This document shows positions 2,022-33,588 of a stretch of DNA of 37,782 nt, piece after piece. A program made the translations under genes and the position numbers. The notes under the pieces are model-generated. The model searched no databases. It saw only the letters and a program-made list of their open reading frames with translations, and had not been told where the DNA came from. Source of the DNA: Deltaproteobacteria bacterium (GTDB lineage: Bacteria > Myxococcota_A > UBA796 > UBA9615); NCBI GenBank assembly GCA_023954745.1, contig JAGSHC010000029.1, positions 1 to 37,782 of the forward strand, written 5' to 3'. Position 1 is the first letter of the stretch, and each line of letters opens with the position of its first letter.

Positions 2022-3272
2022 CGCCAGGGAGAGCGGCAGTCCCGGAAGCAGGAGACGCACCGCGAGGATGGCTGCAAGCGCTCCGGTGAGGTCCGCCGCC
2101 AACCCAGCCGGGACAGCGTGGCGAATCTTGCTCACCCCCACCGAGCCGAAGTACACGGCCAGGACATAGAACGTGGTGTCCGTCGAACCGTTCATCGTCG
2201 TGGCCAGCGTCCCGATCATCGAGTCGGCGCCGTGGGTCTCCACCAGGCTCGACGTGATCCCAAACGCCCCGCTGCCCGAGAGCGGCCGCATGAGCGCCAG
2301 GGGAAGCACCTCGCCGGGCATCCCGACGAACGAGGTGATGGGCGAGAGGAGCTTGACGAGGGCGTCGAGGCCGCCGCTCTTCTTGAACATCCCCACCGCC
2401 GCCAGGATGGCGACCAGGTAGGGGATGATCATGATCGCGAGGTCGAAGCCCTCCTTCGCCCCCTTGACGAAGACCTCGTACACCTTGACGCCCCGGACGA
2501 TGCCGACCGTGAGCATTCCCAGGATGAGGGCGGGGAGGATCCAGGCGCTGGCTGCCTCTCCGTACACGTAGACACCGAAGACCATGCCCACGACGGCGGC
2601 CCCGAAGAGGACCAGGGGCACCAGGTCGGCCAGGGACTCCTTCTCCCGCTGCGCGGCCAGGCGCGCGTCCGCTTCCCGCTGGGCCTCGGGCGAGGCGAAC
2701 ATCGGCAGACGGGACAAGAACTTCGCCACGGAGATTCCCACCACGGTGGAGCAGGCGGTGGCGAACAGCGTCGTGGGGAAGATGGCCGCGGGGTCGAGGG
2801 ACCCGAAGTGGTTGCGCAGACCGATCATCCCCGTCGGCAGCAGCGCCAGACCCGAGGTGTTGATCGCCAGAAACAGAACCATCGCGTTCGTGGCGGTGCC
2901 CTGCTCCTTGTTGAGCTCGTTGAGCTCCTTCATCGCCTTGAGCCCGAAGGGGGTGGCGGCGTTGCCCAGCCCCAGGGCGTTGGCGGCGATGTTCATGACC
3001 ATCGCGCCCATGGCGGGGTGGTCGGGCGGCACATCGGGGAAGAGACGAATCAGGACGGGTCGGATGAGGCGGGCCATCCACTTGAGGCCCCCGGCCTCCT
3101 CGACCACCTTCATCAACCCGAGGAACAGAGCGATGTAGCCCACCAGGCCGATGGCGAGCTCGACGGCACCCTTGCTGGAGTCGAGAGCGGCCTTTCCTAC
3201 CTCGGCGGGCGTCCCGGTGAGGGCGGCGAACACCACCGCGAGCAATACGATGGCGTAGAAGACGATGTTCAT
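1827..3272 (-). CDS. SpmA-SpmB fusion, nucleoside-recognition (Gate) domain membrane protein
   Basis: A 481-residue protein from the ATG at 3272, which overlaps the upstream stop as ATGA. The N-terminal half is SpmA-like (hydrophobic MNIVFYAIVLLAVVF start, then NIAANALGLGNAATPFGLKA). The C-terminal half is SpmB-like (LMRPLSGSGAFG, NGSTDTTFYVLAVYFG, then VSKIRHA). In Bacillus these are separate spore maturation proteins; fused forms occur in many non-sporulating Gram-negatives as multi-pass membrane proteins of unclear transport role. About 65 residues at the end are a low-complexity acidic tail (many E and D) that extends the normal family length and lies antisense to the kinase membrane helices. 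It is the last gene of the YjbR-sigma-anti-sigma operon, so it may be made under control of that sigma factor. Confidence 0.85.
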   Translation of the reverse strand: MNIVFYAIVLLAVVFAALTGTPAEVGKAALDSSKGAVELAIGLVGYIALFLGLMKVVEEAGGLKWMARLIRPVLIRLFPDVPPDHPAMGAMVMNIAANALGLGNAATPFGLKAMKELNELNKEQGTATNAMVLFLAINTSGLALLPTGMIGLRNHFGSLDPAAIFPTTLFATACSTVVGISVAKFLSRLPMFASPEAQREADARLAAQREKESLADLVPLVLFGAAVVGMVFGVYVYGEAASAWILPALILGMLTVGIVRGVKVYEVFVKGAKEGFDLAIMIIPYLVAILAAVGMFKKSGGLDALVKLLSPITSFVGMPGEVLPLALMRPLSGSGAFGITSSLVETHGADSMIGTLATTMNGSTDTTFYVLAVYFGSVGVSKIRHAVPAGLAADLTGALAAILAVRLLLPGLPLSLASTADEGSGGDEPTEQLASEQEEQAPSAEVQSGDGDDDSAQKEDGEGEDGDEPATPLPSDPPPSR

Positions 3273-4009
3273 CTGGGCTTGCCTCCGAAGGCACGACGGA
3301 CGAGCAGGATGACGAGCATCGCCGCCAGGGGGACGGTGGCGTGACCGATCAGCAGATGATCCCGCAAGGCAATGGGACAGTGCATCTGCAAGGCGAGCAC
3401 GCCCCCGAGCCCTGCTCCGGCAGCCGCCAACGCCGAGACCCGGGCGCGGGTCGGAGGCAATCGCTGCAGCACCGCCAGCGTGCCGAGGATCGGCAGAGCT
3501 GCGGCGCTCCCGTAGAGGAAACACGCCATCACGTCTTTGACGAAGGTCCCCTCCCCTCCCTTCGCTCCCGGGAGCATCAAATTCTCTGGGGGGACGAGGG
3601 CGAGGGCCGCTGGAAGGGCCACTGCGGCAATGGCGAGCCCCCAGGTGACCCCGGAACTCGCGGCGGCTTTGTGGGGACCTCGGAGCGCGACCGACGTGAG
3701 GATCAGGGCGAGGGCCGCCGAGCTGGCTCCCTCCATCGCGAGACGGAGCGCGGGATACTCCCCGAGGTCGGCCCGGGCGTTCACGAGCAGCACGATGGTC
3801 GCGAGCGCTGCCATGGCCACGGCCGCGATGGCGAGCCGCGCGGGGGTGGGCAGCTGCCGGACCGTCGTGACGAAGCCCGTCTCCGACGCCACCGCTTGCT
3901 TCGTGGCCCCCAGACGCGCCTCGGCACCCTCCACCTCTGCCGACGCCTCTGGGGGTCGAGCCAGAGCCTGCAGCGCCGCGTCCAGGCGGGGATCGCGTTC
4001 GTCGGTCAC
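3269..4009 (-). CDS. six-helix membrane anti-sigma factor, NrsF/DUF1109-like
   Basis: A 246-residue protein with a soluble N-terminal region of about 55 residues and then six hydrophobic segments, beginning TPARLAIAAVAMAALATIVL. The last loop and helix carry QMHCPIALRDHLLIGHATVP, which resembles the conserved Cys-Pro and His near the end of NrsF/DUF1109 proteins. In that family the membrane protein binds and inhibits the ECF sigma factor encoded just upstream. Here the start overlaps the sigma gene stop by four bases (ATGA), as expected for a stoichiometric pair. The family call rests on topology, the CP/H motif and context rather than strong sequence identity. Confidence 0.68.
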   Translation of the reverse strand: MTDERDPRLDAALQALARPPEASAEVEGAEARLGATKQAVASETGFVTTVRQLPTPARLAIAAVAMAALATIVLLVNARADLGEYPALRLAMEGASSAALALILTSVALRGPHKAAASSGVTWGLAIAAVALPAALALVPPENLMLPGAKGGEGTFVKDVMACFLYGSAAALPILGTLAVLQRLPPTRARVSALAAAGAGLGGVLALQMHCPIALRDHLLIGHATVPLAAMLVILLVRRAFGGKPR

Positions 4010-4584
4010 GCTGCCTCCTCCTGCAGAGCCACGCGCAGGCGCTTGTAGCCGCGGTGGGCGCGCACCTTCACCGCCGACAGCCCCGCTCCGACGACCTCGG
4101 CCACCTCCTTCATGCCCAGCCCATGCAGCCAGTGCAGCTCGATGACGATGCGCTCATGCTCCGGCAGCTCGGCCAACGCCGCCCGGACCCGCCGCGCATC
4201 CTCGTCAGCCACGATGTCGTGAGCTGCCACGGACGGCGTGTTGGCGTCGTGCAGCTCGGTCGAGATCCCCCGCCGCGAGCGCTTGCGGAGGTGGTGGCGA
4301 CAGACGTTGAGGCAGATCGTGTAGAGCCAGGGCCGCAGAGGAAGCCCCTGCTTGAAATCCTTGCGGGACCGATGCAGGTGCAGGAAGGTCTGCTGAACCA
4401 GCTCGTCGACCTCGTCGGTGCTGCCCACGCGACGCCGCGCATACCGCCGCAGCGGCGCCTCGTAGCGGCGCCAGAGTTCATCGAACGCCGCCGCCTGCCC
4501 GTCCCGGTAGGCAGCGAACAGCTCTTCGTCGGTGCGCGCCGGGGGACTGGTCGCGGCGAGGAGGATCCGCAGCAGCAGGCTCAC
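4006..4584 (-). CDS. ECF-type RNA polymerase sigma factor
   Basis: A 192-residue sigma factor from the GTG at 4584, which overlaps the stop of the upstream gene as GTGA. Region 2 is clear: DEELFAAYRDGQAAAFDELWRRYEAPL, then DEVDELVQQTFLHLHRSRKDF and PWLYTICLNVCRHHLRKRSRR. Region 4 is a helix-turn-helix: ALAELPEHERIVIELHWLHG, then MKEVAEVVGAGLSAVKVRAHRGYKRLR. It would direct RNA polymerase to its own promoter set and is probably held inactive by the membrane protein encoded immediately downstream. The signal is not apparent from the sequence. Longer in-frame starts exist but run inside the upstream gene and add only Arg/Gly-rich residues. Confidence 0.93.
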   Translation of the reverse strand: MSLLLRILLAATSPPARTDEELFAAYRDGQAAAFDELWRRYEAPLRRYARRRVGSTDEVDELVQQTFLHLHRSRKDFKQGLPLRPWLYTICLNVCRHHLRKRSRRGISTELHDANTPSVAAHDIVADEDARRVRAALAELPEHERIVIELHWLHGLGMKEVAEVVGAGLSAVKVRAHRGYKRLRVALQEEAA

Positions 4585-4991
4585 GTTCCGAGGGCCTCCA
4601 GGGCGGCGACGGCGGCCTCCGGGGGCTCCTCGGGGGGAAGCTGCTTCTTCACCACGGTCTTCGGCGCCACAGCCCGGAAGCTCTCGTCGATCCACTCGAT
4701 GAGCGCATCGATGGGCAGGTCATCCTCGGCGGGGATCGTCACACTCACCCAGCCGTAGCGACCGAGGCCGTAGCCCGTGGGCTTGCACCAGGGCAGCTGC
4801 AGCGCCGCCTCACTCGACTCCGGCAGCTTCAGGCTGATCGAGAGCTTGTCGTCGTGCTCACCCATGAACACGAAGGCCTTCTTGCGGACCTTGAACGCGG
4901 GGTGATCCCAGGGGCGGTCTTCGTGCGACTCGGGATAGGCGAGGGCGGCAGCCCGCACGGCGTCCTGGACTCTGGCGGGGTCGAAGGGCAT
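4581..4991 (-). CDS. MmcQ/YjbR family protein
   Basis: A 136-residue protein of the MmcQ/YjbR (DUF419) family, small CyaY-like-fold proteins described as DNA-binding or stress related. Recognisable family features are ALAYPESHEDRPWDHPAFKVRKKAFVF near the start, the KLSISLKLP strand and the WVSVTIPAEDDLPIDALIEWIDESFRAV end. A Pro/Ala-rich tail of about 25 residues follows. It is the first gene of a four-gene overlapped operon with an ECF sigma factor, an anti-sigma factor and a SpmA-SpmB fusion. A TAnnnT box (5002-5007) sits 10 nt upstream of the ATG. Why this family heads a sigma operon is not evident. Confidence 0.85.
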   Translation of the reverse strand: MPFDPARVQDAVRAAALAYPESHEDRPWDHPAFKVRKKAFVFMGEHDDKLSISLKLPESSEAALQLPWCKPTGYGLGRYGWVSVTIPAEDDLPIDALIEWIDESFRAVAPKTVVKKQLPPEEPPEAAVAALEALGT

Positions 4992-24353: not shown

Positions 24354-24359
24354 TAGAAT
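24354..24359 (+). promoter_or_regulatory. -10-like box TAGAAT before the MopE repeat gene
   Basis: TAGAAT matches four of six bases of the sigma-70 -10 consensus and lies 31 nt before the ATG at 24391. It would give a leader of about 25 nt containing AAGGAG (24379-24384). Confidence 0.35.
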
Positions 24360-24390
24360 GAGCGCATTGAGAGGCACCAAGGAGCCGTTG

Positions 24391-27300
24391 ATGAACCGCC
24401 ACTTCTGGGGCCGTATGCCCAGCTTGGCCGTCCTGATGGTGCTGTGCGCCGCCGGTACGGCCTCCGCCGCGACCTATGTCGTCAACAGCGTCGCCGATCC
24501 CGGGAACGGCACCTGCGACGCATCCGAGTGCACGCTACGAGAAGCAGTCGATGCCCTCTCGGCGAACAACGACGCGATCCGTTTCGACTTCACCGGGACA
24601 GGTCTGTCCGCACCCTTCGAGATCGAGCTCGGCTCGTATCTGAACGTCGACCAGAACGAGGTGACCATCGACGCTCTGGACTGCACGGGGTGCGGGACCG
24701 TCGCTGGCACGACGACCAACGCGACGGACGGCTTCGACTCGACGCTGGCGGTGCGTGTAATCGCGGCCGTGGGGTTCTCCGACGACCAGCTGTTCTACAT
24801 CGACTCCAACGACGTGGTGCTCAAGGGCTTCAACCTCGACGGGTCTCCCGAGTTCGGCGTCGAGGTGGAGGGCGACCGCTTCACGATGGAGGACTGTTAC
24901 GTGGGCACCTCCATCAACGGAGGATTGGGCCTCGGCAACGGCGATGACGGCATCAACTTCGCCAACAGCAACAACAGCGTGCTGGGCCCGGGCTTGCTGG
25001 TCTCCGGGAACGGCGACAACGGCATCAGCGTCTACGACAAGGACAGCGACTCCCTCACCATCAAGGACAGCATCATCGGGCTGGACGTCACGGCCACCGC
25101 CCTGCTGGGGAACGCCGACTACGGGATCGTGGTCAACGGCAACGACGGGAACCTGGGGACCCTGACCATCGGCGGCGCCTCGAGCACCGACGGCAACGTC
25201 ATCTCGGGGAACGGAGAGTCGGGGATCCTGCTCTACAACGACGTCGACGGGAACAGCGCCGACATCGCCAACAACCTCATCGGCACCAATGGGGCCGGGA
25301 CCGTAGACCTCGGGAACGACGGCTACGGGCTGCTGATGTCCGCAGAGTTCTTCACGGCCGATCGCCCCCGTGAGTTCGACATCTACGACAACGTGATCTC
25401 TGGGAACACCGATGGGGGGGTCTTCCTGCATCGCGCGGCGACCCTGACGTTCTCGAGCAACGCCATCGGCACGGATGTCGGCGGAACCCTCGATCTCGGC
25501 AACGGCGGGGAGGGCATCTACCTCTACTCGAACTCTGGCGGCGCGGACACGACGTCGGTCACCATCGGCGGCGCGGGGAACGAGAACCTGATCGCCTACA
25601 ACGGGGGCGACGGCGTCCGCATGAACGACGCGGGATCGCTCGAGGTGGAGTTCATCACCATCAGCGTGAACCAGTTCTGGGACAACGCGGGCCTCGCCAT
25701 CGACATCGAGAACGCCAACGCCACCAACACCGGCGACGGACCGTCCCTCCCCCCCGCGAACAACTGCTCCAACGATGAAGGCTGGGGGAACAGGGAGGCG
25801 AGTCGCCCTCTCATCTCCAGCGCCGAAGTGCTCGGGGGCACGCTCACGGTGGTGGGGACGTCCTGCGCGTCAGCCATCGTGGACCTCTACCTCGCTGACC
25901 CCGACGGCACCGGCTACGGAGAGCCCTTTCTCTTCCTGGGCACGGACACGGCCACTGGCGGCGGGGGCGGTGCTTGGACCGTCACGGTGCCGAACAGCGG
26001 AGCGACGTCCTCGGACGTGGTCACGGCGCTCCAGACCGACACCGACGGCGAGACGGGGGAGGCCGCGCTCAACGTAGCGGTGTCGGCTCCTTGCGATGCC
26101 GACGGAGACGGCCAGGACCGCAATGACGGGACCCTCCTGTGCGTAGGCCCCGACTGCGACGACACCGACGCCACCATCTACGACGGCGCCCCCGAGGTCT
26201 GCAACAACGTCGACGACGACTGCGACGGGGTGGTTCCCACCAACGAGATCGACGGGGACAGCGACGGCCAGGCCACCTGCGAGGGGGACTGCGACGACAG
26301 CGACGACACCATCTACGACGGCGCCACCGAGATCTGCGACGGCCTCGACAACGACTGCGACCTCGCCATCCCCGCGGACGAGGCGGACTCCGACGCCGAT
26401 GGGCAGCGGGTGTGCGAAGGCGACTGCAACGACGGCGTCGCGACCATCTACGACGGCGCCATCGAGCTCTGCGACGGCCTCGACAACGACTGCGACACCC
26501 TCCTCCCGGCGAACGAAGCCGACAACGACGGGGACGGGTTCCTCGTCTGCGAGAACGACTGCGACGACACCAGCGCCAGCGTGTTCCCGGGCGCCACGGA
26601 AGCCTGCAATGGCGTCGATGACGACTGCGACGGCTCCATCCCCGCCAACGAGTTGGACGGGGACAGCGACGGGCAGAGCGCCTGTGCTGGCGACTGCGAT
26701 GACGCAGACGCCACCACCTTCAACGGCGCGACCGAGTTGTGCGACGGCGTCGACAACGACTGCAACGGCGCCGTGCCCACCGACGAGACCGACGACGACG
26801 GCGACTCCTTCAACGAGTGCTCCGGAAACGACTGCAACGACGCAGACGCCACGGTGTTCCCCGGGGCGACGGAGACGTGCAACGGCATCGACGACGACTG
26901 CGACGGCTCCATCCCCGTGGACGGGGCTGACGGGGACAGCGATGGGCAAGCCACCTGCGCCGGCGACTGCAACGACGCGGACGCGACCATCTACGACGGC
27001 GCCCCCGAGCTGTGCGACGGCCTCGACAACAACTGCGACAGCTCGCTCCCCGTGGACGAGTCGGACGCCGACAGCGACGGCCAGAGCGCGTGCGCGGGCG
27101 ACTGCGACGACGCGGACGCCACCGTCAACGGGTCGGCCACCGAGATCTGCGACGGCCTCGACAACAACTGCGATGGAACGGTGCCCGCGGACGAGACCGA
27201 CGACGACGGCGACACCTTCAGCGAATGCGCCGGCTTCGACTGCGACGACACGAACAGCCTCGTCTTCCCCGGGGCCACGGAGTTGTGCAACGGCACCGAC

Positions 27301-29157
27301 GACGACTGCAACGGTGCGGTGCCTGCCGACGAGCTCGACGTGGATGGTGACGGCACGTCGACCTGCGACGGCGACTGCGACGACACCGATGCGACGGTCG
27401 CCCCCGGCCTCCCCGAGATCTGCGACGGCGCCGACAACGACTGCAACGGTTCGGTGCCCTCGGACGAGATCGACGATGACGGCGACGGCGAGACCGAGTG
27501 CGAAGGCGACTGCGACGACTTCTCCGCCACGGTGAACACCCTGGCGGCGGAGGTCTGCAATGGCCTCGATGACAACTGCGACGGCGCCGTACCGGCAGAC
27601 GAGACCGACGACGACGGCGACGGGTTCGACGAGTGCGCCGACGGAGACTGCGACGACACCGAGCCCACCACGTTCCCCGGCGCCACCGAGGTGTGCGATG
27701 CCATCGACAACAACTGCGCCGCGGGCATCGACGAGCCCTTCGATCTGGACTCCGATGGTTTCACGGACGGTGCGGTGACGGACTGTGTGAACGCCTGGGG
27801 CGCCGCCAACGTCGACTGCGACGACACCGACGCCGCCGTGAACCCCAACGCCGTGGAGCAGTGCGACGGCATCGACAACAACTGCGACGGGACGATCGAC
27901 GAAGACGCCGACCTCGACGGCGACGGATTCACAAACTGCGCCGGGGACTGCGACGACAGCGACGCCACCATCTTCCCCGGAGCCACCGAGGTCTGTGACC
28001 TCGCGGACACGGACTGCGACGGGACGCTGCCCGCCGACGAATCGGACGGGGACGCCGATGGGGTGGCCGCCTGCGTCGGAGACTGCGACGACGCGGACGC
28101 CACCGTGTACCCCGCCGCTCCCGAGCTGTGCGACGAGCTGGACAACGACTGCGACGGGACCGTGCCGCCTGACGAAGTCGACGACGACCTGGACGGGTTC
28201 TTCGAGTGCGACGGAGGCGACTGCGATGACACCTCTCCCCTGACCTTCACGGGGGCTGCCGAGCAGTGTGACGGCATCGACAACGACTGCGATGGCGCCG
28301 TGCCCGGCGACGAGACGGACGACGACCTCGATGGGTACGACGAGTGTGCCCAGGGCGACTGCGACGACACCGACTTCACCATCAACCCCGGCGCGGAGGA
28401 GGTCTGCGACGCGGTGGACCAGGACTGCGACGGGGTCATCGACAATGGGTTCGACCTGGACGAGGACGGCGTCACCACCTGCGGTGACGACGGAGTGCTG
28501 GCCACCGAGGATGACGACTGCGACGACGAGAACGCCGACGTCTCTCCCGACGTCCAGGAGGTGTGCGACGGCATCGACAACGACTGCGATGGCGACATCG
28601 ACGAGGTGGAGGACCTCGACGGAGACGGCTTCACCAACTGCGATGGCGACTGCGACGACGAGAACGCCGACGTCTACCCGGGAGCCGACGAGATCTGCGA
28701 TGGGCTGGACAGCGACTGTGACGGCGACGTGCCCGCCGATGAGTCAGACGATGACGGAGACGGCTTCAACGAGTGCGGCGACGACGACTGCGACGACGAC
28801 GACCCGACGGTCTACCCCGGCGCGGAAGAGACCTGCGAGGACGGCATCGACCAGGACTGCGACGGCGAGGACCTCGTCTGTGGCGAGGACTGCGTCGACC
28901 TGGACGAAGACGGCATCACCGACTGCGACGGCGACTGCGACGACAACGACGCCCTGGTCTCCCCCGTCGCCACAGAGACTTGCGAAGACGGCATCGACCA
29001 GGACTGCGACGGCACCGACGTCGACTGCATCGAGCTCACCCTCGAGGAGGCCGCCGGGTGCGACTGCGGCGACAGTTCTCCCAGTGGGAGCACCGCACTG
29101 GCGATGTTGGGACTTCTCAGCCTGACCGGGCTGCGCAGGCGGCGCCTGGTGGCCTAA
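24391..29157 (+). CDS. giant surface protein: beta-helix domain, 21 MopE-type metal-binding repeats, MYXO-CTERM-like tail
   Basis: A 1588-residue exported protein. The ATG at 24391 is preferred because AAGGAG stands six bases upstream; an in-frame start at 24358 lacks this. A signal peptide ends GTASA. A CSLREA-like motif follows (CDASECTLREAVDA), then a right-handed beta-helix with repeated NVISGN/GIYLY-type rungs to about residue 470 and a beta-sandwich to about 567. Residues 568-1546 hold about 21 repeats of some 45 residues: DGDxDGxxxC, GDCDD, PGAxExCDGxDNDCDG. These match the putative metal-binding motif of MopE, a copper-binding surface protein of Methylococcus. The end is GCDCGDSSPSGS, one hydrophobic helix and RRRR, a MYXO-CTERM-like tail. 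It is probably a calcium- or copper-loaded surface filament or adhesin. Confidence 0.92.
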   Translation: MNRHFWGRMPSLAVLMVLCAAGTASAATYVVNSVADPGNGTCDASECTLREAVDALSANNDAIRFDFTGTGLSAPFEIELGSYLNVDQNEVTIDALDCTGCGTVAGTTTNATDGFDSTLAVRVIAAVGFSDDQLFYIDSNDVVLKGFNLDGSPEFGVEVEGDRFTMEDCYVGTSINGGLGLGNGDDGINFANSNNSVLGPGLLVSGNGDNGISVYDKDSDSLTIKDSIIGLDVTATALLGNADYGIVVNGNDGNLGTLTIGGASSTDGNVISGNGESGILLYNDVDGNSADIANNLIGTNGAGTVDLGNDGYGLLMSAEFFTADRPREFDIYDNVISGNTDGGVFLHRAATLTFSSNAIGTDVGGTLDLGNGGEGIYLYSNSGGADTTSVTIGGAGNENLIAYNGGDGVRMNDAGSLEVEFITISVNQFWDNAGLAIDIENANATNTGDGPSLPPANNCSNDEGWGNREASRPLISSAEVLGGTLTVVGTSCASAIVDLYLADPDGTGYGEPFLFLGTDTATGGGGGAWTVTVPNSGATSSDVVTALQTDTDGETGEAALNVAVSAPCDADGDGQDRNDGTLLCVGPDCDDTDATIYDGAPEVCNNVDDDCDGVVPTNEIDGDSDGQATCEGDCDDSDDTIYDGATEICDGLDNDCDLAIPADEADSDADGQRVCEGDCNDGVATIYDGAIELCDGLDNDCDTLLPANEADNDGDGFLVCENDCDDTSASVFPGATEACNGVDDDCDGSIPANELDGDSDGQSACAGDCDDADATTFNGATELCDGVDNDCNGAVPTDETDDDGDSFNECSGNDCNDADATVFPGATETCNGIDDDCDGSIPVDGADGDSDGQATCAGDCNDADATIYDGAPELCDGLDNNCDSSLPVDESDADSDGQSACAGDCDDADATVNGSATEICDGLDNNCDGTVPADETDDDGDTFSECAGFDCDDTNSLVFPGATELCNGTDDDCNGAVPADELDVDGDGTSTCDGDCDDTDATVAPGLPEICDGADNDCNGSVPSDEIDDDGDGETECEGDCDDFSATVNTLAAEVCNGLDDNCDGAVPADETDDDGDGFDECADGDCDDTEPTTFPGATEVCDAIDNNCAAGIDEPFDLDSDGFTDGAVTDCVNAWGAANVDCDDTDAAVNPNAVEQCDGIDNNCDGTIDEDADLDGDGFTNCAGDCDDSDATIFPGATEVCDLADTDCDGTLPADESDGDADGVAACVGDCDDADATVYPAAPELCDELDNDCDGTVPPDEVDDDLDGFFECDGGDCDDTSPLTFTGAAEQCDGIDNDCDGAVPGDETDDDLDGYDECAQGDCDDTDFTINPGAEEVCDAVDQDCDGVIDNGFDLDEDGVTTCGDDGVLATEDDDCDDENADVSPDVQEVCDGIDNDCDGDIDEVEDLDGDGFTNCDGDCDDENADVYPGADEICDGLDSDCDGDVPADESDDDGDGFNECGDDDCDDDDPTVYPGAEETCEDGIDQDCDGEDLVCGEDCVDLDEDGITDCDGDCDDNDALVSPVATETCEDGIDQDCDGTDVDCIELTLEEAAGCDCGDSSPSGSTALAMLGLLSLTGLRRRRLVA
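26092..29028 (+). repeat. tandem array of about 21 MopE-type repeats (roughly 135 bp each)
   Basis: The units share DCDD, a PGA/DGA turn, E-x-C-x-G and DxDCDG at fixed spacing; most end in P-x-D/N-E. Two units near 27730 and 28450 carry insertions before DCDD. Some units are close copies at DNA level, others clearly diverged, so the array is old but still partly homogenised. Confidence 0.9.
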
Positions 29158-29161
29158 ACGA

Positions 29162-29180
29162 GGCGGGAGCTACCCGAGCC
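29162..29180. terminator. hairpin between the convergent MopE repeat and sigma-fusion genes
   Basis: GGCGGG at 29162-29167 can pair with CCC at 29173-29175 and GCC at 29178-29180, with a 5-nt loop that contains the stop of the minus-strand gene and a 2-nt bulge. The genes are separated by only 12 bp, so any terminator must sit here. The stem is modest. Confidence 0.3.
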
Positions 29181-30063
29181 AGCCGAGAGCCCAGGCGGCG
29201 CCCCCCGCGAGAGCGGCCCCAGAAACGGCGAGCAGCACCCGCATACGAAGCCGCGCGCGCTTCCTCTCGAAGGCGCGCCCCACGAGCAGCGCCGCGACCT
29301 CGCGGGACTGGGACGCGCTGGGCTGCCTGGCGGCGCGATCTTCGGCGGCGCTCTTCAGCTCCCGGTGCAGCCGCCACCACTCCAGGGTCGCGGGACCGCA
29401 GTGATCACAGTCGCTGGAGTGCGACTGGAATGCTGCAACGTCCCCGCCCTTGAGGTCCCCGTCGATGAACACCGGCCAGGACTTGCACTCCTTGGAGCTG
29501 GGGGCAGGAATCTGTTTGGTCGAACGGGTAGACCAGAGCGCGTCCCGCGAGCCACGCAAGACGCGGCGCACGGAGCCCTTGGACCTCCCCAGCGCCCGGG
29601 CCATGGCGTTCACCGACATCCCCTCCACGACGTGCAAGATCAGGATCTCGCGCCGAGAGCGGGAGAGTCCCTCGAAGACGACCGCGAGGCGGGTGCTGCT
29701 GTCCGGCGGCGGCGGCGGGCGGACGTCCTCGTCGTCCTGCTCCGTCGGAGTCCGCGGCGTCAGCGTCGCCTCAACCACCCCAGGGAGCCACTGGCGCATG
29801 CGCCAATTGCGGGTCTCCACCACTGCGAGACCGCGGAGCTGGTCGTGAATGGGGCCGCGCTTGCCGCGCTTCCGGGCGGTCTCGAGCAACCGAAGGAAGA
29901 CCTCCCGCGTCAGTTCGTCGGCCACATCGGGGCTCAGCTCCGGCTCCATCCTGAGCAGCAGAGTCGAGATCATGTGACCGAAACGCTGGAGCAAGCCGGC
30001 AAGGGAGCGTGCGTCCCCAGCGGCGAGTCGGTTGGCTAGTGCGAGCTCGGACGCATCGCGCAC
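29170..30063 (-). CDS. ECF-like sigma factor fused to a zinc-finger anti-sigma domain and membrane anchor
   Basis: A 297-residue protein from the GTG at 30063; longer in-frame extensions look non-coding and cover the promoter region. Residues 1-100 resemble sigma region 2 (LANRLAAGDARSLAGLLQRFG, then DVADELTREVFLRLLETARKRG), though divergent. An acidic Pro-rich linker (about 107-122) leads to region 4: VFEGLSRSRREILILHVVEGMSVNAMARALGRSKGSVRRVLRGSRDAL. Then comes a ZAS-like zinc motif, H215-x3-C219-x2-C222 (HSSDCDHC), normally found in separate anti-sigma factors, and a C-terminal hydrophobic helix at about 273-295. The protein would carry its own inhibitor and be held at the membrane. It diverges from a Ser/Thr kinase. 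Confidence 0.72.
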   Translation of the reverse strand: MRDASELALANRLAAGDARSLAGLLQRFGHMISTLLLRMEPELSPDVADELTREVFLRLLETARKRGKRGPIHDQLRGLAVVETRNWRMRQWLPGVVEATLTPRTPTEQDDEDVRPPPPPDSSTRLAVVFEGLSRSRREILILHVVEGMSVNAMARALGRSKGSVRRVLRGSRDALWSTRSTKQIPAPSSKECKSWPVFIDGDLKGGDVAAFQSHSSDCDHCGPATLEWWRLHRELKSAAEDRAARQPSASQSREVAALLVGRAFERKRARLRMRVLLAVSGAALAGGAAWALGWLG

Positions 30064-30195
30064 ATCAGTCAGGGCGAGGCCGATAGCGAGTCCTCCTCGT
30101 CCGCAGCATGCACCAGGGTTGGGCGCAGACCAACCCGCCACGAGAATCCCCTCCGGGAGCCAGACAGGGCACGACGGAGCGCCTGTCACGAGTGT

Positions 30196-30201
30196 TACGC
30201 T
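30196..30201 (+). promoter_or_regulatory. -10-like box TACGCT before the second kinase
   Basis: TACGCT lies 19 nt before the TTG start at 30221, with AGGAGGT between (30207-30213). The hexamer equals the one at 23029. Transcription start would fall at the edge of the ribosome binding site, giving a leader of about 13 nt. Confidence 0.3.
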
Positions 30202-30220
30202 TTCACAGGAGGTCCAGGCC

Positions 30221-31507
30221 TTGGGTGTGAAGCTCGGCATATTGATTGACGAGTACAAGCTGCTGGCGCCTCTGGGCACCGGGGGGATGGCCGACGTCTA
30301 CCTCGCCAAGGACACGCGGCTCGAGCGCGCTGTCGCCCTCAAGATGGTCAAGGGAGACCGGCTCGGAGACCCCGCCGTCGAAGAGGGGCTGCGACGCGAA
30401 GCCCAATTCGCTGCCCGCATCACGCACCCGCACGTGGCGTCCATCTTCCGCTCGGGCGAGTGGGAGACGCAGCCGTACTACGTCATGGAGCTCCTCACGG
30501 GCGGCTCCCTGGCCGAGATCATCGAGCACAAGTCCTCGTTCACCATTCATCAGTACCTGGCCATGTTTGCCCAGGCGTGTGCGGCGCTCCAATCCGCGGT
30601 GGACGTGGGGGTGATTCACCGGGACGTGAAGCCTGGAAACCTGATGCTCGACCCCGCGGGGCGGCTCAAGCTCACGGACTTCGGACTGGCACGCGTCAAG
30701 GGCGAGCAGGGTCGCCGCACCAGCTGGCTGATGGGTACGCCGCTGTACATCGCCCCCGAGATCGTCCAAGGCGAACAAGGCGACATGCTCTCGGACGTGT
30801 ACTCACTCGCGGGCACCTTCTTCCACCTCTTCTGCGGGCGCCCCCCGTACGTGTCCGACGGACGTCCCTTCGGCGTCATTGAGCAGCACCGCCACGCGGC
30901 GGTTCCGAGCCTCAAGGACGTGAACAAGAAGACGCCGTCCCCTCTGCGCGACCTCCTGATGGAGATGATGTCCAAGGACCCGCGGGATCGGCCCCACTCG
31001 TTCACCAAGGTGGGTCAGCGGGTCCGCTCCATCGCAGAAGGCATGCGGGCCGCTCGGCTCGACGAGCGGATGCGGTGGTGCTCCGTGGACCTGTGCATGA
31101 CCCCCGCCAACGGGGACCGGTGCGGACTCTGCAAGAAACGCTACGCCGCGTCAGTGATTGAGAGGCAGCTGTTCGACGTGGACATCGTGGGTTGGGTCGC
31201 GCCAGCGGCCATCGACCGCGTCGCCGACTACATGGCGACCGCGGCCGAGCAAAAGGCCGACGCAGTGCGCTGGCAGTTGAGCCGTCTCCCCTTCCGCCTC
31301 GCGGATCGCGTCACCGCCGAGCTGGCGGGAAGGATGCAATCGACCTTCACCCGCCTGGGCGCCGAGGTCGAGACCCGCGCCGCCAGTGGGAAGAGCGGCG
31401 GGGATGGTCCCGGGAGCCGACGCCTCGACTTCACACCGCTGTGGCCTCCTTCGGGCACCCTCAGCAGTCAGAGGCGCGGCTCCGGCCTGCTGCGGGGCTT
31501 CGGCTGA
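30221..31507 (+). CDS. Ser/Thr protein kinase with C-terminal Cys4 motif
   Basis: A 428-residue kinase. The TTG at 30221 is chosen because AGGAGGT ends seven bases before it; a GTG two codons later is the alternative. The kinase domain begins at once: YKLLAPLGTGGMADVYLAKD, lysine K41 in VALK, catalytic HRDVKPGN at H133, DFG at D153 and YIAPEI. All key residues are present. After the kinase, four cysteines (C287, C292, C301, C304) are spaced like a small zinc ribbon (WCSVDLC, then RCGLC), and a helical region follows to the end. There is no membrane helix, so it is cytoplasmic. It is divergent from the sigma-anti-sigma fusion, which it might phosphorylate; that link is inference. Confidence 0.92.
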   Translation: MGVKLGILIDEYKLLAPLGTGGMADVYLAKDTRLERAVALKMVKGDRLGDPAVEEGLRREAQFAARITHPHVASIFRSGEWETQPYYVMELLTGGSLAEIIEHKSSFTIHQYLAMFAQACAALQSAVDVGVIHRDVKPGNLMLDPAGRLKLTDFGLARVKGEQGRRTSWLMGTPLYIAPEIVQGEQGDMLSDVYSLAGTFFHLFCGRPPYVSDGRPFGVIEQHRHAAVPSLKDVNKKTPSPLRDLLMEMMSKDPRDRPHSFTKVGQRVRSIAEGMRAARLDERMRWCSVDLCMTPANGDRCGLCKKRYAASVIERQLFDVDIVGWVAPAAIDRVADYMATAAEQKADAVRWQLSRLPFRLADRVTAELAGRMQSTFTRLGAEVETRAASGKSGGDGPGSRRLDFTPLWPPSGTLSSQRRGSGLLRGFG

Positions 31508-31592
31508 CCCACGCATCCTGACGAGTCGTTGAGACTCGGGAATCCCCGGCCCTCTCTCCGGGTTGCTGACCCGGCTGGCGAGAGGGTGCATC

Positions 31593-32819
31593 GTGAGACA
31601 ACTGACTCCCCTGATGGCGCTGAGCGTCTGCGTCGCGCTGTGCCTCCCATCCGTGGCCCAGAGCCAGACACCTCCCCCCGGGAACCCGCTGCCGGCCGTC
31701 TTCGCTCTCGCAGAGCCGGCCGTGGTCCGAGTCCACACCCGGGAGGGCCGAGGCAGTGGCTTCCTCGTGGACGCCAATCACGTCGTGACGGCCTGGCATG
31801 TCGTGCAAGGTCGGCAGGACCTCGTGGTCGAGACCGCCGATGGTCAGCTGCTCCCGGCGACTCTGGAGACTCGGAGCGTCCAGGACGACCTCGCAGTCCT
31901 CAGGCTGGAGGGGCCGGTGTCGAACCTGGCGGCTGCCGTCCAGCCTCTGGTGCTCGCTCCCACCACCCCCGCAGTCGGGACGCGCGTGGCTCATCTCGGC
32001 CACCCCCTCGCCCCGGCAAGGGAACCGAAGCGCGAACTCAGCATGGGCCCCCACCCGTGGTCCCTTACGGAGGGCATCGTAAGCCAGGTCGGTCAGTCGA
32101 CCCTCCAGAGCAACGCGGCGGTGGACTGCGGTAGCTCCGGGGGGCCCTTGCTCGACATGGAGGGCCGGGTGGTCGGAGTGGTGACGCTGCGCCTGGGCAC
32201 CCTGGGAGGCGCCACCCGGGTAGAGCGACTCGCCGCCCTGCTCGCCGACGAGCCCATGCTGCCCAAGGGACCCTCGCTGGATCTGGCTGGGCGCTACGGC
32301 CTCGGCGGAGCGCGCATCGTGGCGGGGAGCGCTGACTCGTCCAACTTCTTGACGCTGTCCTCGGGGCTCGACCTGATCATCGACCGTCGCTTCGCGATCG
32401 GGCTGGATGTACAGGCCGACCTTCTCGTGGGCAAGGCCCGCAAGGAAGCCGGCCTTCGCTCGACACGCTTCATGATCGGAACGCGCCTGGGCCCGAGGAT
32501 TGAGGCTCCGTTCCGCGCGAAGCGGCACCTGCCGTTCGCGATCCAGCCCTACTTCGCGGCGGGGCTCAGCATCTCTCGTCAGGGCACTCACACGAAGTCG
32601 CTTCAGTTCACCGATCCCCAGTGCGACGCGAGTCTGGAGGAGTGCGCCTACCGCACGACGGATGCGACCGTCTGGGACCCGATCCGGATGGCTCCCTACG
32701 TGGGGGGTGGGCTTCAGATCGACTTCGGGGCCGCCTACCTCGATGTGGGCATCACGACGAACCCCACGGCGCCCGTCAGGGACACTCGGCTCCAGTTCGG
32801 CGTCGGCGTCCGCTTCTGA
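31593..32819 (+). CDS. trypsin-like (HtrA-type) serine protease fused to a C-terminal beta-barrel
   Basis: A 408-residue exported protein from the GTG at 31593. Signal peptide MRQLTPLMALSVCVALCLPSVAQS. The protease domain (about 30-215) has all three catalytic residues: H69 in VTAWHVV, D99 in DDLAVLRL and S182 in CGSSGGPL. No PDZ domain follows. Residues about 230-408 show alternating amphipathic strands (GLDLIIDRRFAIGLDVQADL, PYFAAGLSIS, APYVGGGLQIDFGAAYLDVGI) and end FGVGVRF, with the terminal Phe typical of outer membrane barrel proteins. The protein is probably inserted in the outer membrane with the protease in the periplasm or on the surface. It follows the kinase gene by 85 bp and may share its transcript. 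Confidence 0.82.
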   Translation: MRQLTPLMALSVCVALCLPSVAQSQTPPPGNPLPAVFALAEPAVVRVHTREGRGSGFLVDANHVVTAWHVVQGRQDLVVETADGQLLPATLETRSVQDDLAVLRLEGPVSNLAAAVQPLVLAPTTPAVGTRVAHLGHPLAPAREPKRELSMGPHPWSLTEGIVSQVGQSTLQSNAAVDCGSSGGPLLDMEGRVVGVVTLRLGTLGGATRVERLAALLADEPMLPKGPSLDLAGRYGLGGARIVAGSADSSNFLTLSSGLDLIIDRRFAIGLDVQADLLVGKARKEAGLRSTRFMIGTRLGPRIEAPFRAKRHLPFAIQPYFAAGLSISRQGTHTKSLQFTDPQCDASLEECAYRTTDATVWDPIRMAPYVGGGLQIDFGAAYLDVGITTNPTAPVRDTRLQFGVGVRF

Positions 32820-32877: not shown

Positions 32878-33588
32878 ATGACGGATCTCCCCCCCCTGAT
32901 GCCCCATGGCTCCCTCCAAGCGTTCGCCGACGATGTCTGGATCCTCACGGGCAGCGTCCAGATGGCGCCCGGAATGCGGATCCCCCGGAACATGGTGGTC
33001 CTCCGTCACGAGGGTGAGCTGACTCTGATCTCTGCAGTACGAGTGGACGATGCCGGTCGCGGCGAGCTCGATGCCCTGGGATCGGTGCGGAACCTGATGA
33101 AGATCGGCGTGCACGGGATGGACGACGCCTGGTACCTCAAGAACTACCCCGACGCCCGGGCATGGGCCCTTCCGGGAACCGACCACCAGCCAGGAGGCAA
33201 GCAAGCCGGTCTCCTCACCCCGGACTCACTGCCCATTCCCTGGATGAGCCTCTTCCAGTTCGAGCACACCAACAAGCCGGAGTCCGCCCTGGTGCTCGAG
33301 CGCGGAGGCGGCATCCTCGTCACCTGCGACTGCGTCCAGCACTGGCCCGACTCCGAGGGGTGCTCCTTCCTCGCCAAGGGGCTCACCAAGCTCATGGGCT
33401 TCCAGAAGCGCCTTCCCGTCGTGGGCCCGCCATGGCTGAAGGCCATGACGCCAGCGGGAGGCTCTCTCTCGTCGGACTTCGCCCGACTCGCGGATCTCGA
33501 GTACACCCACCTCATCTCTGGACATGGGAAGCCCATGCGCAACGCCAACGCCGCCCTGAGGGCGACGGTGGAAGCGACGTTTGCCTGA
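32878..33588 (+). CDS. metallo-beta-lactamase-fold protein lacking the HxHxDH motif (DUF4336-like)
   Basis: A 236-residue protein with the strand order of a metallo-beta-lactamase fold. VWILTGSVQM, RNMVVLRHEGELTLISAVRV, then HGMDDAWYLKNYPDARAWALPG stand where the HxHxDH metal loop belongs, but only H-x2-DD remains. Later LVTCDCVQHW and LISGHGKPMRNA take the places of the bridging Asp and last His motifs. This resembles DUF4336-type proteins, in which the metal site is reduced. Substrate is unknown. There is no signal peptide, so it is cytoplasmic. It starts 58 bp after the protease gene and is convergent with the tRNA genes. Confidence 0.6.
   Translation: MTDLPPLMPHGSLQAFADDVWILTGSVQMAPGMRIPRNMVVLRHEGELTLISAVRVDDAGRGELDALGSVRNLMKIGVHGMDDAWYLKNYPDARAWALPGTDHQPGGKQAGLLTPDSLPIPWMSLFQFEHTNKPESALVLERGGGILVTCDCVQHWPDSEGCSFLAKGLTKLMGFQKRLPVVGPPWLKAMTPAGGSLSSDFARLADLEYTHLISGHGKPMRNANAALRATVEATFA

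Follow-up and report, generated by a model that had tools for sequence, protein, structure and literature searches.

A single open reading frame joining an ECF sigma fold, a zinc anti-sigma domain and a membrane helix in a deltaproteobacterial genome

Does the gene at 29170..30063 (minus strand) of the 37,782-nt stretch of Deltaproteobacteria bacterium DNA analysed here (the window) encode a sigma factor that carries its own anti-sigma domain and membrane anchor and, if so, how did such a chain arise and what might it do? The gene begins with GTG and encodes 297 aa followed by a stop codon. Sigma region 2, sigma region 4, a zinc anti-sigma domain, an Arg-rich helix and one membrane helix lie in a single open frame, and the chain that a sequence-only reading of this DNA had proposed (regions 2 and 4, then H215-C219-C222 and a C-terminal hydrophobic helix) was thereby borne out by profiles, fold matches and hydropathy. 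Over nearly its whole length, the sigma/anti-sigma junction included, this frame was supported both by codon-position GC and by a codon-usage score for which nine neighbouring genes served as the training set; the codon score was lower than that of the neighbours (0.07-0.16 vs 0.21-0.42). The start codon is uncertain; inspection of the sequence before GTG 30063 revealed no good Shine-Dalgarno motif at normal spacing.

The sigma half comprises region 2 (aa ~1-101; 29761..30063, minus strand) and region 4 (aa ~122-182; 29518..29700, minus strand). Of the domains that the earlier reading had expected profile searches to return, sigma region 4 was found by Pfam (Sigma70_r4_2 above cut-off at aa 130-167, 6.9e-7), while the same scan yielded neither Sigma70_r2 nor zf-HC2 at E <= 10; NCBIfam ECF models matched aa 4-170 (4.9e-10). 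In the AlphaFold2 model, which was run on an alignment of 13 sequences, pLDDT was mostly 92-96 for sigma-2 and mostly 85-96 for sigma-2 and sigma-4 together, and Foldseek searches of the PDB with this model returned ECF sigma factors. The predicted sigma-2 superposed on region 2 of sigmaE with rmsd values of 1.9-2.1 (for E. coli 4lup_C, 1.9 over 93 columns, TM 0.85), and the predicted sigma-4, which is also supported by alignment, matched region 4 of SigD (3vfz_A, rmsd 1.2, TM 0.85) as well as 3vep. The possibility that the protein has no sigma region 2 was ruled out by this fold comparison, despite the Pfam miss. With sigma-2 and sigma-4 present and sigma-3 absent, the domain composition is that of an ECF (group 4) sigma factor.

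For each half we counted how many of the residues conserved in relatives each protein retains. The sigma half kept 26/45 family-conserved positions (0.58) as compared with 0.79-0.95 in the relatives, and at a stricter threshold 15/27 (0.56) as compared with 0.89-1.00. Among the 19 lost positions are Q53, W75, R89 and R94 in region 2 and R123, E153, R168 and R171, several of which are assigned by homology to promoter or core contact; the substitutions within promoter-reading segments are W75Q, R89M, R94P, R168V and R171G, and the last sigma-4 helix carries VLRGSR in place of an RLHRAR-type motif. Core-binding residues of region 2.2 are partly retained (D49, E50, E54, V55 and F56). The core- and promoter-contact residues of an ECF sigma factor are therefore incompletely kept, and because 19 of the 45 conserved positions are gone we describe the product as a sigma-fold protein with sigma activity unproven.

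The class I zinc anti-sigma domain (ASD/ZAS) occupies aa 193-245 (29329..29487, minus strand). Its ligands are C193 (29485-29487), which the earlier reading had missed, H215 (29419-29421), C219 (29407-29409) and C222 (29398-29400), all on the minus strand and spaced C193-x21-H215-x3-C219-x2-C222; all four align with those of soluble sigma-ZAS fusions and of separate anti-sigmas. A profile built from ten separate zinc anti-sigma proteins only and searched in a database of 449 sequences matched the fusion protein with E 6.6e-15 (6.7e-16 when only the C-terminal part was compared), whereas among 200 shuffled versions of these residues the best score was 0.006; thus, the zinc motif is not a chance occurrence. 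The match extends from the four ligands through L-x-x-R-A, in the helix that precedes the membrane, to the membrane helix itself, and the Hx3Cx2C motif, the upstream Cys and the profile match together identify a class I zinc anti-sigma domain that falls short of the Pfam zf-HC2 threshold. This half retained 14/20 conserved residues, all four zinc ligands included (0.70; relatives 0.50-0.89). By these counts the sigma half is unusually altered and the anti-sigma half is not.

An Arg-rich helix with an LVxRA motif (aa 250-275; 29239..29316, minus strand), recognised by alignment to separate anti-sigmas, follows the zinc domain and is probably ASD helix 4. It runs into the only membrane helix detected by hydropathy (aa 276-296; 29176..29238, minus strand; score 1.73), the two forming one helix (250-296) in the model, and G297 alone lies beyond it. 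The stop codon of the convergent neighbour gene is just 12 bp past that of the fusion gene, which leaves no room for a hidden periplasmic domain downstream. In known complexes of class I ASDs, helix 1 of the ASD makes contact with sigma-4 and helix 4 with sigma-2 (PMC7406223). In the fusion protein P197 falls in ASD helix 1, and the AlphaFold2 model has no helix there; confidence in the zinc domain was about 50-72, and the 13-row model (pTM 0.43) gave no signal for packing of the ZAS domain on the sigma domains.

Most likely, a protein built in this way is a tethered, self-inhibited sigma factor that site-2 proteolysis, zinc loss or both would set free. The steps beyond the architecture are ones that we infer, and both auto-inhibition and release are plausible. 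The anti-sigma domain would fold back onto sigma-2 and sigma-4 and hold the protein inactive at the inner membrane. Since essentially no periplasmic tail is left, the usual site-1 signal could not be received, and the chain would be a direct substrate of a site-2 (RseP-type) protease. This is favoured by the presence of an RseP-like M50 protease in the source genome and by the resemblance of the layout to short truncations of IutY, a sigma/anti-sigma hybrid, which end just past the membrane helix and are constitutively processed and active in an RseP-dependent, Prc-independent manner (PMC5411451). Release would take intramembrane cleavage, and the zinc domain, acting as a second lock, would also have to be removed or unfolded (by Clp-type degradation, thiol oxidation or zinc loss), so that sensing, if any, would be cytoplasmic or intramembrane. 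Because the sigma surface is strongly altered, the promoter preference, if there is one, would have to differ from that of the relatives. Against this mechanism stand the low conservation of the sigma half (0.58) with its Arg and Trp losses in promoter-reading segments, the proline in ASD helix 1, the pTM of 0.43, the lack of a match in the same-genus genome that could serve to gauge selection on the fusion, and the outcome of one topology test (see below).

The same sigma-half losses give rise to a serious rival, although we regard it as doubtful, namely that the sigma half no longer works and that the protein serves instead as a membrane-bound decoy or scaffold for an anti-sigma factor or RNA polymerase, or simply as a zinc/redox protein whose sigma fold is vestigial. 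Retention of 0.58 against 0.79-0.95 next to a normal anti-sigma half, the five promoter-reading substitutions, a terminal branch of 1.8 changes per site in the sigma tree and the missing Pfam Sigma70_r2 match all agree with such a repurposing; yet sigma-2 and sigma-4 are predicted with high confidence, the region 2.2 core-binding residues are partly kept, and the divergence may equally reflect a changed promoter specificity. It is also conceivable, though unlikely, that this sensor-less single chain would act as a membrane-tethered mimic of a sigma factor, titrating away RNA polymerase or some other regulator and not starting transcription, the anti-sigma half being its conserved working part. 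Quite unlikely, in turn, is that the gene is a decaying, lineage-specific relic of a fused sigma/anti-sigma operon that has lost its sensor and is heading for loss. No match was found in a genome of the same genus, and the long branch, the lost conserved residues and the weaker codon signal would fit a relic; however, for all the very large divergence the frame stays open over its 297 codons and shows in-frame codon preference, every zinc ligand is retained along with the RA motif, and unconstrained drift over such a length should yield stops or frameshifts, which argues against simple decay.

As to where the tethered chain came from, the fusion protein looks like a FecR-TPR-type sigma/anti-sigma pair that has been fused and has lost its FecR-TPR part. 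Most of the sigma relatives within the phylum are followed by a separate anti-sigma gene. A contig scan with the fusion protein alone found no relative, and a scan with a 3-sequence alignment recovered 27 sigma relatives (those beyond L118 being used solely for the structure alignment), most of which had no recognisable zinc anti-sigma next door. Of three separate anti-sigmas scanned, all had FecR and TPR after the membrane helix and two matched Pfam zf-HC2; the fusion protein ends at its membrane helix and lacks the periplasmic FecR-TPR part. The ancestral operon would have held a sigma gene and then an anti-sigma gene with ZAS, membrane helix, FecR and TPR, and the ECF sigma gene would have been joined in frame to the adjacent class I zinc anti-sigma gene with loss of the periplasmic FecR-TPR part. 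In a tree of 79 sigma domains the fusion sigma lay among split FecR-type sigmas (SH-aLRT 89-94). Independently of the tree, a split-pair origin is supported by identity (35-38% to split FecR-type sigmas vs ~27% to soluble sigma-ZAS fusions), by the LVxRA-membrane segment common to the fusion protein and FecR-type anti-sigmas, and by the locus of the closest split sigma gene in genome G020: there the window gene at 32878..33588 has a relative (58% identity) directly divergent to that sigma gene, and a kinase gene comes after the anti-sigma gene. The closest split relatives (L005, L052, L053 and L054) have FecR-TPR anti-sigmas without the zinc motif in which the LVxRA pre-membrane helix is kept, so zinc loss and fusion would have occurred in different branches of the family.

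A very unlikely alternative is descent from soluble sigma-ZAS fusions of the same phylum, with a membrane helix gained later. Five such single chains (L061, L062, L064, L146 and L147; ~270 aa) carry sigma-2, sigma-4 and a zinc finger in the same order, and in L146 and L064 Pfam recognised sigma region 2, region 4 and zf-HC2. A survey of 71 genomes of the class with a sigma-ZAS model found, among the matches listed, uninterrupted fusions in the source genome and in two others (G022:C128 and G026:C249), and among those matches there was no second sigma-ZAS-membrane fusion; the latter two, like L061, L062 and L064, are without a membrane helix. All four zinc ligands were common to an alignment with three soluble fusions, and an AU test did not reject grouping with them (p 0.137). 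The higher identity to split FecR-type sigmas, the position in the best tree, the LVxRA motif and membrane helix, and the neighbour gene held in common with the G020 locus all point the other way. Taken as a whole, the explanation that we prefer (an operon-derived in-frame fusion that lost FecR-TPR and became a tethered, self-inhibited sigma factor and direct site-2 substrate) seems to us about as probable as all else together.

The sequence-only reading had held that homologues split in two would indicate a sequencing artefact. The relatives are indeed split, but as ordinary operons in other species, and the split therefore marks the ancestral state. A single-frameshift artefact was ruled out: both alternative frames are free of stops from aa 152 to 218, the first alternative-frame stops beyond aa 176 fall no earlier than aa 219, within the zinc domain, and the segment between aa 169 and 198 offers no in-frame start codon, while the sigma proteins of split relatives end soon past region 4, so one indel cannot recreate a normal split pair. 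That an assembly or sequencing error joined two genes that are separate in the living organism is thus highly improbable, for although the source assembly is a draft (7.1 Mb, 481 contigs) without a close orthologue and relatives carry the two parts as separate genes, the FecR-TPR part is absent too and several errors would have been needed.

That the ZAS domain and anchor belong to a separate protein in known systems, the premise on which novelty had first been argued, is wrong as a general rule, since ECF48, ECF52 and ECF53 are C-terminal zinc-finger and membrane-helix fusions (PMC8999054; PMC5826349) and IutY is likewise fused. Like the fusion protein, ECF52/SCO4117 (and also ECF48 and ECF53) combines an ECF sigma factor with a zinc finger and a membrane helix in a single chain; these groups are reported from Actinobacteria only, and membership in ECF52 was rejected since its long proline-rich extension and carbohydrate-binding domain past the membrane are absent here and the closest relatives are not actinobacterial. 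IutY (ECF243) of Pseudomonas putida joins a sigma factor to a membrane-anchored anti-sigma in one chain, but its anti-sigma domain is periplasmic and it works together with a siderophore receptor, neither of which was seen for the fusion protein, whose single residue past the membrane helix speaks against membership; its layout is that of the short IutY truncations with a zinc domain added between sigma and membrane. CorE-type factors (ECF238, formerly ECF44; Myxococcus xanthus) share a C-terminal Cys-containing regulatory extension but have a CXC in the sigma2-sigma4 linker, a Cys-rich domain and no membrane helix, and the linker here (aa 102-121) contains no Cys. The soluble sigma-ZAS fusions share the order sigma-2, sigma-4, ZAS with C...Hx3Cx2C but lack the membrane helix, belong to a different sigma clade in the best tree and matched no named ECF group here. 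Closest are the split ECF sigma and FecR/TPR pairs of the same phylum (in G020:C112, SBGP01000021.1 of Deltaproteobacteria bacterium M1803, which shares the neighbour gene, and in G061:C75), with homologous sigma factors of up to 38% identity and, in zinc-bearing pairs, homologous ZAS, LVxRA helix and membrane helix; they differ in being two genes, in an anti-sigma that runs into periplasmic FecR and TPR, and in conserved sigma residues. The open-access literature, to which our search was confined, yielded no report of the same arrangement in myxobacteria.

Across a divergent intergenic region (30064..30220) lies a Ser/Thr protein kinase gene (30221..31507, plus strand; Pkinase 1.3e-44) with a likely TTG start at 30221 and AGGAGGT at 30207-30213. 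Its product of ~425 aa has a Cys-rich C-terminal part (CSVDLC...CGLCKK); a paralogue in the source genome (C370) is 40% identical, and the frames of this paralogue and of other family members are much longer (730-895 aa). Proposed earlier as a partner together with the protease gene beyond it, the kinase gained weak backing, as a kinase gene also follows the anti-sigma gene of the closest relative in G020; adjacency counts for little because kinases are abundant in these genomes. A phosphorylation switch by the divergent kinase was rejected on that ground and because the acidic residues of region 2.2 are kept (V-A-D-E, as opposed to kinase-activated ECF43, in which the DAED of region 2.2 is missing). 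The trypsin-like serine protease gene (31563..32819, plus strand; Trypsin_2 3.8e-27) encodes an HtrA-like domain and then a ~200-aa C-terminal region resembling an outer-membrane barrel; nothing links it to the fusion protein, no counterpart turned up in the loci of the relatives, and it was dropped as a partner. The next gene (32878..33588, plus strand) has no Pfam match and is the one related to the gene beside the closest split sigma in G020 (L081/L105). On the other side, 24358-29157 (plus strand) encodes a ~1600-aa repeat protein that contains 21 Cu-binding_MopE-type motifs (PF11617, 1.4e-192) and carries at its C-terminus a hydrophobic/Arg tail reminiscent of a MYXO-CTERM sorting signal; a large protein with such metal-binding motifs would fit a source akin to myxobacteria. 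The window also holds a normal split pair, in which the stop of an ordinary second ECF sigma gene (4006-4695, minus strand) overlaps the start of a gene with several membrane helices (3269-4009, minus strand) that is weakly similar to NrsF anti-sigma (PF06532, 6.3e-4, below cut-off).

Single-chain sigma-ZAS-membrane proteins are thus already known, and what is particular to this one is its origin from another family, the loss of the sensor and the altered sigma half. The gene suggests that, outside Actinobacteria and siderophore systems, one-component membrane-tethered sigma factors can arise by a second route, through fusion of a FecR-TPR pair and loss of its sensor. With next to nothing exposed in the periplasm, the protein is nature's equivalent of the short IutY truncations made by engineering, and it could be used to test whether a site-2 protease alone sets output. 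It also provides a case in which the two halves of a sigma/anti-sigma pair, joined in one chain, evolve at strongly unequal rates.
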